This document shows positions 15,056 through 61,883 of a stretch of 64,000 bases of DNA, piece by piece (positions within the stretch are counted from its first letter, which is position 1; the number at the start of each line of letters is the position of its first letter). Position numbers and translations under genes: made by a program. Source of the stretch: Dyella amyloliquefaciens (lineage in GTDB: Bacteria > Pseudomonadota > Gammaproteobacteria > Xanthomonadales > Rhodanobacteraceae); assembly GCF_004296575.1 (NCBI RefSeq), contig NZ_SAYT01000005.1, positions 124,001 through 188,000 on the forward strand. Reading direction: 5' to 3'. The notes below the pieces were generated by a model, which worked only from the letters and a program-made list of their open reading frames with translations, searched no databases and was not told where the DNA came from.

Positions 15056-18000
15056 TCACGCGAGCGCTTCGAGCGCCCGCGTGAGTCGCTTGGCCGACAC
15101 CGGTTCGGCCGTCTTCAGTTCCTGCGCGAACAGCGACACGCGCCACTCCTCGATCAGCCAGCGCAGTTCGTCCAATCCTCCGGTGCCTGCGGCCCGATGC
15201 TTGAGGTAATCGCGCCAGAACGGCAGCACCTGCAGCATGCGCTGCTGGTCCTTGGCCGGATCCTGGCGAAGGCGCTCGGCACGCAGGCGCATCGCCTTCA
15301 GATAGCGTGGATAGTGCGCGAGTCGCGAGGTGGGCAATTCACGCAGGAATCCTGCCATCAGCAAGGAATCGAGCTGCTCGCGCAGATCGTCGTAGCTGGC
15401 GCGCGCAAAACCCATCAATGGCGGCTGCAGCCAGGGCTTCATGTCGGCCTGCGCCTCGATGATCGGCTCGGCCAGCTTCAGGCGCTCCACCGCGGCACCA
15501 AACAACTCGCGCGCCATCTGCGTGTGCAGCGCCTGGAAGGTGCCAGCGGTACGCACGTTGAGGTCGTGGCGTTCGAGCAGATCGCTGAAGCCGCCTTCCA
15601 CCAGGTCTTCACGCAAGCCATCGACGCCACCGAGCGGTGCGTATTTCAACGCGAGCGGATTGGCGATCGGCAGGCGGCGGCGCGCCTGCTTCATATCGCT
15701 GGCGAGCGCGTTGCGCAGCAGGCGCACCACGCCCTGGACATGCGCCTCGCGAGCCTCATCGCTGCGCTCGAACACGCGCAGAGCCACGGCGTCACCGAGG
15801 TCCACGAGTGCCGGGAACGCCAGCAGGCCACCGGCCGAGCGCACCTGCGCGGGGATCTCTTCGAAATCCCAGCTGGCGATGTCCTCGCGCGTAAGCTCGA
15901 TGTCGGTCTTGCGTGAGAACGCCTCGCGCGCCTGGCCTTCCCATTGCCCACGCATTGCGGCGAGGTCACGACCCGTGGCGAGGGTCTTGCCGTTCTCGTC
16001 GTGCAGGCGATAGCGCATGCGGAAATGCGCGGGCAGCTCCACCGCATCGAAATCCGCTGCCGCGACGTCTACGCCGGTGGCTCGCTTGAGGAATGCGGCG
16101 AGCGCCTTGTGCAAGGACTCGTCGCGCGGCGCCTCGGCTTCGGCGAAGGCGCGTGCAAAGTCCGGCGCCGGCACGAAATTGCGGCGCAGCGCCTTGGGCA
16201 GACCGCGGATGAGCTCGGCCACCTTCTCGGCCAGCAAGCCGGGCACCAGCCATTCGCAACGCGCCGCGGGCAACGCATTCAACATCGCCAGCGGCAGGTG
16301 CAAGGTGACGCCGTCGGCGTCGTCACCAGGAACAAAACGGTACTCGAGGCGGTACTTCTGCGGCCGCTCCCGCGCATCCTGCGCTCGCGGCACTTGGCCA
16401 TCCATGGCCGGCGGTGGCACATCCAGCGAGGCCGGAAACGCCTTGGGATCGAGACCCGCGCCGCCACTCATCACGTCGTCCAGCGACCAGCGCAGCGCCG
16501 CCTGCTCGGCGGGACGCGCCTTGCGATACCACGCATCGAGCGCGCGGCTGTCCGCGATGTCCTGTGGCAGCTTGCCTTCGAAGAAGCCCACGAGTTCGTC
16601 CTCGGAGCGCAACAGGCCTTCGCGGCGCTGCTTGGCCTCGATGCCGCGGGCATCCTCCAGCACGCGCTGGTTCGCGCGCACGAAGTCGGCGCGTGCGTCG
16701 ATATCACCGCGGGTCAGCGCCTCACGCAGGAAGATCTCGTGCGCCAGCACCGGATCCTGCTTCTGGAAGGTGCCGGGACGACGCTCTACCAGCGTCAACC
16801 CGAACAGGCTCACCTGCTCGTAGGCCACCACATGGCCACGCTTGCGGGACCAGTGCGGATCACGCCAGGCGGAACGCAACAGGTGCGCCGCCTGCTGCTC
16901 GATCCACAACGGCTCGATGCGGGCGCACGCCATGCCCCATACGCGGCCGCCGACGTCGAGGATCTGCGCTGCGAAGATCCAGTTCGGCGGCACCTTGGAC
17001 AGCGACGAACCCGGGAATACCTGGAAGCGACGCTCGCGCGTGCTGCGGTAGACGCCCTTTTCGTCCTTGTGACCGACCTGCGTGGGCAGGCCGGCGAGGA
17101 GGCTGCGGTGGATGGATTCGTACTGGCGAGTTGCTTCGTCGTCGCTGCTCCCTCTCCCCTGTGGGGAGAGGGTTGGGGTGAGGGGTGGGTGCTCGCGGGT
17201 CTCCTTCCTATCTCGCTTGTTGGAAACAGCACGAGCTCGCTCTTTTGAAGCGCGGGGCGAGGTTGCCCCCTCACCCCACCCCTCTCCCCGCAGGGGAGAG
17301 GGAGCAACGGCGGCGTCCAGCTTCCACCCGAGCTCCTGTATCACCAGCAACAGCTGCCGGTGCAGCTCGCGCCATTCGCGCATGCGCATGAAGCTGAGGA
17401 AGTGGCGGGAGCACCAGTCGCGCAGCTTCGACTGCGTCAGATCCTCGTGCGCCTTGCCGTATTCGCGCCACAAGTTCACCACGCCGACGAAATCCGATTT
17501 CGGATCGGCGAACGCCGCATGCGCGGCATCGGCCTGCTGGCGCGCATCGGCAGGACGCTCGCGCGGATCCTGGATGCTCAGGAAGGATACGATCACCAGC
17601 AGCTCGCGCAGGCTGTGCAGCTTCTCCGCTTCCACCAGCATGCGGGCCAGTTGCACGTCGATCGGCAGCCTGGCCACCACGCGGCCGATCGGCGTGAGGT
17701 GACGCGCATCATCGATGGCCGAGATCTCGGCCAGGCGGCGGTAGCCGTCGGCGATCACGCGCGGATCGGGCGCTTCGAGGAACGGGAATTCGTCGACCTC
17801 GCCCAGCTGCAGCGACAGCATCCGCAGGATCACGTTGGCCAGCGACGAGCGCAGCAGCTCCGGATCGGTATAGGCCGCGCGGCTTTCGTAGTCGGCCTCA
17901 TCGTAGAGGCGATAGCAGGTACCCGGACCCACGCGGCCACAACGGCCCTTGCGCTGGTCGGCGGCGGCCCTGGAGATCGGCTCGACGTGCAGGCGCTCGA

Positions 18001-19180
18001 GCTGGCTGCGCTGGCTGTAGCGCTTGACGCGCGCCTGGCCCGAATCGATCACATAGCGGATACGCGGCACGGTGAGCGAAGTTTCGGCCACGTTGGTGGC
18101 GAGCACTACGCGACGCTTCGGACCCGGCTTGAACACGCGGTCCTGGTCGCCGGCGGAAAGGCGCGCATACAGCGGCAGCACTTCCGTCTCGCGATACTGG
18201 CGGCGCGACAGCAACAGATGGGCGTCGCGGATCTCGCGTTCGCCGGGCAGGAAGATCAGTACATCGCCACGCGGATCGTCATGGGTGATTTCGTCCAGCA
18301 CGGCGGCCACATGATCGGCACCACCCTGCTGCAGGTCACCGGCACGCTGCCCGCGGCGTGCCGCAACCTCGTCCACCGAGCGCCAGCGGACTTCCACCGG
18401 ATAGGTACGCCCTTCCACCGACACGACGGGTGCATTGCCGAAGTGCTCGGCAAAGCGCTCCGTGTCAATGGTGGCCGAGGTGACGATGATCTTCAGCGTC
18501 GGCCGCTTCACCGCAAGCCGCTTGAGGTAGCCCAGCAGGAAGTCGATGTTGAGGCTGCGCTCGTGGGCCTCGTCGATGATGATGGTGTCGTACGCGCTCA
18601 GCCAGGGATCGCCCTGCGTTTCCGCGAGCAGGATGCCGTCGGTCATGAACTTGACCAGGGTGCGGTCGGACACCTGGTCGTTGAAGCGCACCTGGAAACC
18701 CACCTGGTCGCCCAGGCCGGTGCCCAGTTCCTCGGCCACGCGGCGCGCCACCGAGCGTGCCGCCAGGCGGCGCGGCTGGGTGCAGCCGATCATGCCCGCT
18801 TCGCCGCGCCCGGCGGCCAGGCAGAGCTTGGGCAGCTGGGTGGTCTTGCCCGAGCCGGTTTCGCCGGCAATCACCACGATCTGGTGCTTGCGGATCAGCT
18901 CGACGATCTCCTCGGCACGCGCGGTAATGGGTAGCGATTCGTCCAGCGTGATCGCGGGCTTGGCTGCGGTGCGTGCGCGGCGCTTTGCCGCGGAGGCCTC
19001 GATATCGGCGGTGAGCGCCGTTAGCTTCTTTTCGTCGAAGCGACGCGACAGCTCGCGCCAGCGGCCCTGCAGACGGCCGTAGTCGCGGCTGGATACCGAC
19101 TCGAGCGCCTTGCGCAGTTCGCGCAGACGCGGGTCGGTGGCGGAGGAAGGTGTGGTTGCCTGGGTCATCGGACCGCACAT
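15056..19180 (-). CDS. hrpA: ATP-dependent RNA helicase HrpA with an in-frame repeat-derived insertion
   Basis: A 1374-residue DEAH-box helicase, longer than E. coli HrpA (about 1300). Near the N-terminus are GETGSGKTTQLPK (Walker A) and IIIDEAHERSLNIDFLLGYL; the HA2/OB region follows and the long C-terminal DUF3418-type domain ends the protein. HrpA is linked to rescue of collided ribosomes on mRNA in E. coli. Around residues 625-678 the chain reads PSPLRGEGWGEGA ... HPPLTPTLSPQGRG, the translation of an inverted repeat inserted without breaking the frame. A second ATG four codons in is an equally possible start. Confidence 0.93.
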   Translation of the reverse strand: MCGPMTQATTPSSATDPRLRELRKALESVSSRDYGRLQGRWRELSRRFDEKKLTALTADIEASAAKRRARTAAKPAITLDESLPITARAEEIVELIRKHQIVVIAGETGSGKTTQLPKLCLAAGRGEAGMIGCTQPRRLAARSVARRVAEELGTGLGDQVGFQVRFNDQVSDRTLVKFMTDGILLAETQGDPWLSAYDTIIIDEAHERSLNIDFLLGYLKRLAVKRPTLKIIVTSATIDTERFAEHFGNAPVVSVEGRTYPVEVRWRSVDEVAARRGQRAGDLQQGGADHVAAVLDEITHDDPRGDVLIFLPGEREIRDAHLLLSRRQYRETEVLPLYARLSAGDQDRVFKPGPKRRVVLATNVAETSLTVPRIRYVIDSGQARVKRYSQRSQLERLHVEPISRAAADQRKGRCGRVGPGTCYRLYDEADYESRAAYTDPELLRSSLANVILRMLSLQLGEVDEFPFLEAPDPRVIADGYRRLAEISAIDDARHLTPIGRVVARLPIDVQLARMLVEAEKLHSLRELLVIVSFLSIQDPRERPADARQQADAAHAAFADPKSDFVGVVNLWREYGKAHEDLTQSKLRDWCSRHFLSFMRMREWRELHRQLLLVIQELGWKLDAAVAPSPLRGEGWGEGATSPRASKERARAVSNKRDRKETREHPPLTPTLSPQGRGSSDDEATRQYESIHRSLLAGLPTQVGHKDEKGVYRSTRERRFQVFPGSSLSKVPPNWIFAAQILDVGGRVWGMACARIEPLWIEQQAAHLLRSAWRDPHWSRKRGHVVAYEQVSLFGLTLVERRPGTFQKQDPVLAHEIFLREALTRGDIDARADFVRANQRVLEDARGIEAKQRREGLLRSEDELVGFFEGKLPQDIADSRALDAWYRKARPAEQAALRWSLDDVMSGGAGLDPKAFPASLDVPPPAMDGQVPRAQDARERPQKYRLEYRFVPGDDADGVTLHLPLAMLNALPAARCEWLVPGLLAEKVAELIRGLPKALRRNFVPAPDFARAFAEAEAPRDESLHKALAAFLKRATGVDVAAADFDAVELPAHFRMRYRLHDENGKTLATGRDLAAMRGQWEGQAREAFSRKTDIELTREDIASWDFEEIPAQVRSAGGLLAFPALVDLGDAVALRVFERSDEAREAHVQGVVRLLRNALASDMKQARRRLPIANPLALKYAPLGGVDGLREDLVEGGFSDLLERHDLNVRTAGTFQALHTQMARELFGAAVERLKLAEPIIEAQADMKPWLQPPLMGFARASYDDLREQLDSLLMAGFLRELPTSRLAHYPRYLKAMRLRAERLRQDPAKDQQRMLQVLPFWRDYLKHRAAGTGGLDELRWLIEEWRVSLFAQELKTAEPVSAKRLTRALEALA
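17148..17304. repeat. CTCTCCCC-type inverted-repeat element inserted in hrpA
   Basis: Two copies of the unit face each other. Copy 1 (17148-17188) has CCCTCTCCCC-TGT-GGGGAGAGGG then TTGGGGTGAGGGG; copy 2 (17265-17304) is the inverse. A 76-base spacer separates them. The same arrangement flanks the DUF559 pseudogene at 35.7-36.2 kb, and the bases next to copy 1 (GGGTGCTCGCGG) also match that element. The coding frame of hrpA stays open through the whole element. Confidence 0.87.
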
Positions 19181-35737: not shown

Positions 35738-36118
35738 CTACTCCCTCTCCCCTTCGGGGAGAGGGCTGGGGTGAGGGGCCGGGCTAGCCAGTGCCTCCAG
35801 AATCACCTCAAGTACGCCTTCCATATTCTTCAGGACATCATTGTTCCAGAAACGCAGGACCCTGTAGCCCATGAACTAGAGCTCCAGTGTCCTGCGCTCG
35901 TCATAAATCATCTGCTCGCCATGCTGCCCGCCGTCCAATTCCACAATCAGGTCAGCATCAGGGCAGGCGAAATCGGCTATGTACGGACCGATTTCGTGTT
36001 GGCGGCGGAATTTCCAGCCTTGGAGGTGGCGATGCCTCAGGTGATGCCAAAGCAACTGCTCGGCATCTGTTTGCCGGACGCGCAGCTTGCGCGCCCGGTC
36101 TACGTTCAAACGCTTCAT
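35738..36118 (-). pseudogene. DUF559 endonuclease-like gene with an internal amber stop
   Basis: The frame starts MKRLNVDRARKLRVRQTDAE, then shows the nuclease-like core FRRQHEIGPYIADFACPDAD and LIVELDGGQH, typical of DUF559 (Vsr-like fold). A TAG at 35876-35878 interrupts it after RRTLEL. The same frame continues with FMGYRVLRFWNNDVLKNMEG, the conserved DUF559 end, to a stop at 35738. A single nonsense change (for example TGG to TAG) explains this. The last codons lie in a CTCTCCCC repeat, and an inverted copy of that repeat lies 41 bases before the start codon. Confidence 0.83.
35741..35780. repeat. CTCTCCCC-type repeat, 3' side of the DUF559 gene
   Basis: CCCTCTCCCC-TTC-GGGGAGAGGG forms a perfect 10-bp stem (35743-35765) and is followed by CTGGGGTGAGGGGCC. 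It is in inverted orientation to the copy at 36159. The DUF559 frame reads through it and stops at its outer edge. Confidence 0.88.
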
Positions 36119-36158
36119 CCGTGAGCGTCCCTGGTTGTGGCGTTACCGCGAGCACCCG

Positions 36159-36200
36159 CCCCCTCACCCCAACCCTCTCCCCGGAGGGGAGAGGGAGAAG
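36159..36200. repeat. CTCTCCCC-type repeat, 5' side of the DUF559 gene
   Basis: CCCCTCACCCC leads into the perfect stem CCCTCTCCCC/GGGGAGAGGG (36173-36195). Together with 35741-35780 it bounds the DUF559 gene with inverted ends. The neighbouring CGCGAGCACCCGCC (36147-36160) is the inverse of the bases beside the left copy in hrpA. It lies 14 bases from the lysine gene stop. Confidence 0.88.
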
Positions 36201-38832: not shown

Positions 38833-39128
38833 GAGTACCTTCGATGGTGGTTGGAGAAAACAATCTCGTCAGTGTTGCGCCGCAGCAGGCGGAATGCAAC
38901 TGCCGCGCAGCGATGGACGTTTGGATGGCTAAATGCGGCGGGGTATGGAGAGACCTGCTGCTTAAGCGAAGCTGAGCCCCTCTCCCCTTGGGAGAGGGGT
39001 TGGGGAGAGGGTGCGGGGCTTGCCTCAAGGTCCAGCCCTCGCTCCGGTCGCACCCTCTTCCGCCTGCCGGCACCTTCTCCCGGAGGGAGAAGGATCCGTC
39101 CGTTGCGTGCTGTCTTCAGCTTGTGGCC
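38833..39128. other. intergenic stretch carrying a CTCTCCCC-type repeat element
   Basis: Between fumarase (ending at 39129) and the lysine fusion lies a repeat element, 38977-39093. One end is CCCCTCTCCC/GGGAGAGGGG (38977-38999) with GTTGGGGAGAGGG, and the other is CCTTCTCCC/GGGAGAAGG (39073-39093) preceded by CACCCTCTTCC. The ends are inverted and diverged from the other copies. No gene was recognised. It could also end the transcript of one neighbour. Confidence 0.7.
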
Positions 39129-61833: not shown

Positions 61834-61883
61834 CTCCCTCTCCCCTCCGGGGAGAGGGCTGGGGTGAGGGGCGGGTGCTAGCC
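61834..61883. repeat. CTCTCCCC-type repeat, single end
   Basis: The stem CCCTCTCCCC/GGGGAGAGGG (61836-61858) is followed by CTGGGGTGAGGGGCGGGTGC and TAGCC. The outer part matches the 3' end of the DUF559 unit (GGGGCCGGGCTAGCC at 35775). No inverted partner is close by. Confidence 0.83.

Follow-up and report, generated by a model that had tools for sequence, protein, structure and literature searches.

DUF559 genes usually lie between inverted BoxC/PIT repeats, and the two may form a nuclease-repeat system

The window analysed here is a stretch of 64,000 nucleotides of Dyella amyloliquefaciens DNA (contig NZ_SAYT01000005.1, positions 124,001 to 188,000), and it contains a broken gene of the DUF559 family enclosed by two inverted copies of a short repeat of the kind named BoxC, PIT or TM in the parts of PMC4666352 covered here. 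Each copy, or arm, is laid out as a pyrimidine strand, a loop, a purine strand, a short linker and a second purine stretch (the third strand). The TM_ECO consensus of that paper, CCCTCNCCC-loop-GGGNGAGGG-linker-GGGNGAGGG, is matched by both arms of the gene, by an inverted pair within hrpA, and by a lone arm further right (Table 1; G000 is the D. amyloliquefaciens genome itself, other G numbers are genomes of relatives, and L numbers are loci). The DUF559 domain scores far above the curated PF04480 cut-off of 20.6 bits. After its TAG the frame meets the next in-frame stop at 35740-35738, just beyond the 3' arm, and this arm therefore lies inside the broken frame; on the other side 42 bases (36119-36160) separate the ATG from the 5' arm, the first of them a G that extends the arm. 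The initial annotation, made from the letters of the window, had located the gene, its two inverted copies and the same inverted arrangement in hrpA correctly, and its spacing of 41 bases on the 5' side and none on the 3' side is right to within a base. The repeat is plainly overrepresented, with 16 occurrences of CTCTCCCC in the window against 2.06 expected (16 or more in none of 100 shuffles), and with 102 occurrences of CCCTCACCCCARCCCTCTCCC at up to three mismatches in the D. amyloliquefaciens genome against 13 for a reversed control.

Table 1. Coordinates of the DUF559 gene, its arms and related repeats in the window
Feature	Position	Strand	Remarks
3'-side PIT/TM arm of DUF559 gene	35743..35777	+	exact consensus match; hairpin outermost, third strand gene-facing
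5'-side PIT/TM arm of DUF559 gene	36161..36195	-	inverted; exact consensus match
DUF559 frame, ATG 36118 to stop beyond 3' arm	35738..36118	-	broken by TAG at 35878-35876
DUF559 domain (PF04480)	35789..36100	-	E 1.5e-39, 136.2 bits, one internal TAG
Free inverted PIT/TM pair in hrpA frame	17150..17302		arms 17150-17184 (+) and 17268-17302 (-)
Lone free PIT/TM arm	61836..61870	+	consensus match; G006 has an arm near the same place
Lone sister-family-B arm	38990..39012	-	equals G000:C13:162990-163012; family B brackets DUF559 gene L003

An inverted bracket of this kind is the usual setting of DUF559 genes, and the association is confirmed as real and general. The score was that of the best local alignment of the 250 bases flanking one side to the reverse-complemented 250 bases flanking the other, with a threshold of 16, and it was taken first for 94 DUF559 matches (E at most 3.1e-14, with weaker matches left out, as was the second fragment of a split gene) from 119 related genomes; one match at a contig end was skipped. 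The threshold is reached by 72 of the 93 testable matches and by 7 of 2157 shifted positions at the same loci, and other open reading frames at these loci are bracketed in 1 of 138 cases. With flanks paired wrongly across genomes, 27% of the 8450 combinations reach the threshold. Four of six matches added later are also bracketed, giving 76 of 99 in all; the initial annotation had named flanks mostly lacking the repeats as the outcome that would tell against its proposal, and this did not occur. Secondly, in a named set comprising the best 80 of 563 confirmed DUF559 loci from many phyla, 56 are bracketed, compared with 6 of 852 other open reading frames. Brackets made by a run of N (L215) or a low-complexity run (L249) were not counted, six plasmid loci are likewise out, and at least three named loci (L181, L184, L204) duplicate loci of the relatives set. 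At a stricter threshold of 20 the DUF559 counts are 63 of 93 and 45 of 80, and those for other frames are 0 and 4. The bracketed named loci, many of them metagenome bins, come by record title from several classes of Pseudomonadota and from Chloroflexi, Planctomycetota, Nitrospirae, Omnitrophota, Binatia and Gastranaerophilales. An exact TM-type motif lies within 250 bases of DUF559 in 50 of 94 matches among the relatives and 30 of 80 named loci, with sister stems at others. We note that in Legionella anisa (L185, 10001-10303) the gene sits between very long, near-identical inverted arms with a score of 120.

The arms have a common architecture and a common polarity. Of 244 arms at bracketed loci, 205 have a stem of at least 7, and in these the third strand faces the gene in 160, faces away in 19 and is ambiguous in 26. 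Under the rule that G faces G and A faces A or T, the third strand fits its own stem more closely than it fits the stems of other sites, with means of 0.832 and 0.737 and no permutation of 1000 reaching this difference; the arms in this test (which was given 50 of the 56 bracketed named loci, omitting L199, L204, L207, L208, L216 and L233) were picked by side-to-side match and not by this rule. Stem and third strand thus co-vary according to the triplex pairing rule, the folding itself being predicted. Free close pairs have the same polarity as the ends of the gene units, with hairpins outermost, in all ten pairs re-counted, and the same holds for all 14 pairs with a spacing under 150 bases in the listed hits of the genome search with CCCTCACCCCARCCCTCTCCC; such dispersed inverted doublets are also a feature of the RAYT/REPIN systems considered below. 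The further bases beyond the core that had been seen to match in inverted orientation are real as well: GCGAGCACCC stands on exactly one arm in 7 of 10 close free pairs and on both in none, and at the site of the window gene its complement GTGCTCGC occurs next to the 5' arm in 19 of 29 genomes and next to the 3' arm in none of the 29. In E. coli, five of five pairs combine two unlike motif types in the parts of PMC4666352 covered. The hrpA pair sits between the HA2 and OB domains of its frame (15056-19180, minus strand) and is shared with G003 and G006, with one copy in G013. In the D. amyloliquefaciens genome, dispersed noncoding elements of about 350–450 bases (L007, L012, L013 and L014, all four aligned) have directly oriented PIT-type end arms and a common interior, and further same-strand PIT-type pairs at this spacing occur among the places listed there.

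Gene lineages go with arm families of their own, as sequence comparisons show. The 94 matches among the relatives fall into 31 sites, the largest being that of the window gene with 29 genomes. Arm likeness has a median of 0.52 between DUF559 paralogues of the same genome (33 pairs) and 0.82 between different genomes at the same site (521 pairs), and with one locus per site it tracks protein likeness (Mantel r 0.25, n=71, a value that the duplicated loci L181, L184 and L204 can inflate; 0 of 1000 permutations). In the named loci alone, where these duplicates have no such effect, the Mantel r is 0.20 (0 of 1000 permutations; 49 of the 56 bracketed loci, omitting L199, L202, L204, L207, L208, L216 and L233). 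Plain descent explains part of the likeness of arms at the same site, and it does not explain the contrast between paralogues or the result in the named set. Six members of the genus with a family-B gene have 5–24 copies of family B, including the two located at the gene, against 0–2 in 14 members without it (p 5.6e-5, a statistic that ignores descent). Among 299 genomes of the phylum, from whose counts 14 hand-picked regions (L314-L327) were excluded, 47 have both motif and DUF559, 30 DUF559 only, 17 the motif only and 205 neither, such that DUF559 is present in 47 of 64 genomes with the motif and 30 of 235 without (Fisher p 1.7e-20, again ignoring descent).

The association extends to E. coli, where ycjD of MG1655 (1351407-1351760) is a DUF559 gene and motif no. 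9 in the published list of 23 (PMC4666352) is located between fabI and ycjD; at the E. coli locus L175 a motif of the usual polarity starts 12 bases past the DUF559 domain match. Of the 5375 genomes that match a fabI-ycjD-sapF query, 3333 cover 80% or more of it. ATCC 25922 and TUM13066 (L267, L268) carry a TetR gene and an RND-efflux operon beside fabI, in the place of ycjD in MG1655. In a census of 60 records spread down a match ranking, with the ycjD place itself counting as one, 37 records with ycjD have 8–30 motif places (median 19; the value of 8 is from a partial record), and 23 without ycjD have 1–19 (median 4), with no more than 6 in 13 of them; these counts rest on few lineages. The pairs are polymorphic in E. 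coli: some have lost inner sequence so that a single hairpin remains (War, IPCEC42), and elsewhere the entire intergenic stretch differs.

As to the protein, a structure model of DUF559 has the predicted fold of Vsr and homing endonucleases, as seen by re-alignment of Foldseek matches; the model shares its nuclease fold with a known homing enzyme, and the fold is predicted to be common to Vsr, I-Bth0305I and Caulobacter VsrA. The last contains a DUF559 domain in the parts of PMC12907096 covered, and the Vsr Pfam profile is absent among the 7 families matched by 25 members at E values up to 1. The parts covered of the sources on Vsr-type nucleases describe no flanking repeats, unlike the DUF559 loci here. 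The account of the BoxC/PIT/TM repeats (PMC4666352) resembles our findings in its inverted pairs of unlike arms and differs in that its parts covered here tie the repeats to no gene or enzyme; its text contains neither the word endonuclease nor the word DUF. In Legionella, repeated segments that carry both a transposase and DUF559 are named as variable regions in the parts of PMC12308824 covered, and could possibly be a special case of the same link. The repeats, DUF559 and RAYT/REPIN are each already known; a link between DUF559 and the repeats did not appear in searches of the open-access literature, which omits most subscription papers.

The closest parallel is RAYT/REPIN, where palindromic repeats flank a gene and also occur as dispersed inverted doublets (PMC3116915, in the parts covered). 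The differences lie in the nuclease, which is an HUH tyrosine transposase in RAYT/REPIN and of the PD-(D/E)XK/Vsr type in DUF559, and in the third strand, which is found on DUF559 arms, unlike RAYT/REPIN. On balance we think that DUF559 and the BoxC/PIT repeats probably constitute one nuclease-repeat system, organised as RAYT/REPIN is and with an unrelated nuclease, and we infer that the DUF559 enzyme acts on the repeats. As the comparisons show, the gene keeps its site over long periods, copy numbers vary from genome to genome, and repeat copies outlast a decayed DUF559 gene. A Vsr-like PD-(D/E)XK nuclease would recognise the arm folded as a hairpin or as a purine triplex, most probably in single-stranded DNA at a fork, and would nick or break the DNA there; repair or template switching would then copy the short pair elsewhere at a low rate, and the gene unit itself would move only rarely. 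The RAYT gene is likewise more sedentary than its repeats. Whether this amounts to a second independent gene-plus-palindrome system across phyla, in which a Vsr-like nuclease reads a triplex arm and spreads or maintains the BoxC/PIT repeats, seems to us evenly poised.

Several observations weigh against a nuclease-repeat system. First, the bracket is below threshold in 23 of the 99 matches among relatives and 24 of the 80 named loci, and the 5' arm was not found at the E. coli ycjD locus L175. Secondly, family A has no dependence on an intact gene within the genus: three genomes lacking the site hold 24–93 copies. Within the genus family A is thus uninformative as a test, and it is family B that shows a contrast. 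At least two of these three genomes have gene relics at the site of the window gene (G004 and G019; G002 by eye). The family-B reversed control matches too, with 11 against 16 in G000, because the family-B pattern is nearly mirror-symmetric. Thirdly, in the phylum sample the exact motif, which does not capture sister stems, is missing in 30 of 77 genomes with DUF559, and DUF559 is missing in 17 of the 64 motif genomes. Ten motif-rich genomes (at least 5 copies) lack DUF559 at E 1e-20; five have no match at E 0.01, four have only matches of E 7e-5 or weaker, and one has a frame-broken DUF559 gene. Likewise, 10 of the 23 E. coli records without ycjD keep 13–19 motif places, and the E. coli motif is described as unassociated with transposons, phages or plasmids in the parts of PMC4666352 covered. 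Finally, all the association tests are uncorrected for descent.

An alternative is that DUF559 is a homing-type selfish gene that targets the repeat pair and has invaded the spacers of pairs that spread by other means. We consider this unlikely, since the arm family follows the gene lineage even among paralogues of one genome, which invasion of the commonest pairs need not produce, and since family-B copies are nearly absent without a family-B gene. Less likely still is a bystander role, with DUF559 as a Vsr-like repair enzyme whose gene gathers at triplex repeats because they are unstable hot spots of insertion or gene borders; other open reading frames at the same loci are bracketed in less than 1% of cases, polarity and distance are fixed, and the arms are lineage-specific.

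The initial annotation had proposed an autonomous mobile unit with derivatives resembling miniature inverted-repeat transposable elements (MITEs). The general link of gene and repeat stands, as does the polarity that the ends of the unit share with those of free pairs, both with unlike flanks; autonomous mobility is not supported, and we regard such a transposon as very improbable. In 29 genomes the window copy has the same pair of neighbouring genes, and among 14 further genomes read at this site (of 30 loci) relics or traces of the gene are seen in G004, G019 and G024, and by eye in G002, G028 and G041, with no trace in the other eight; the window gene is therefore old and inherited. Free copies are mostly common to sister species: the motif is kept at 9 of 11 D. 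amyloliquefaciens sites in G006 and 7 of 11 in G004 (13 joined flank segments served as query, two giving no usable pair). Syntenic windows from five relatives were compared as well. Presence does vary at orthologous sites, as had been anticipated, but the readable cases look like decay, partial deletion or, once, replacement by another inverted G-rich repeat and not like fresh insertion. That replacement is in G004 (L347), where the inverted repeat GGGAATGGGGAATAGGG takes the place of the PIT pair of D. amyloliquefaciens at L010. No target duplication is seen at the aligned E. coli or sister-species sites, the ends being too diverged elsewhere, and there is no certain fresh insertion among the E. 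coli, relative and sister-species sites compared. An actively jumping element is thus not evident at these sites. Copy number within the genus ranges from 2 to 144, which shows gain or loss of copies at what seems a slow pace. In G047 (L095, G047:C3:272800-280200) three tandem DUF559 units recur with a period of 501 bases and are separated by additional hairpins, indicating local amplification.

That RAYT-type tyrosine transposases move the repeats, with DUF559 incidental, is hardly credible even though the D. amyloliquefaciens genome has two Y1-type genes, since the motif lies within 400 bases of a tyrosine (Y1, HUH) transposase gene in 0 of 28 scored RAYT-type loci (30 were given, L282 and L307 being skipped for size; L063 was not given), which leads us to reject RAYT as the agent of these repeats, and the four of the 28 that are bracketed are all bracketed by other repeats. 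One D. amyloliquefaciens RAYT-type gene (L064) sits between copies of a different repeat, GTGGGAGCGCACCCTGTGCGCGAC, with a bracket score of 27.

If DUF559 and the BoxC/PIT repeats do form one system, the repeats gain a candidate enzyme and DUF559 gains a candidate substrate with an unusual fold. Because E. coli K-12 holds both DUF559 and BoxC/PIT repeats, the question can be addressed in a laboratory strain, and genome comparison would gain, next to RAYT, a second example of short repeats that evolve together with a nuclease.
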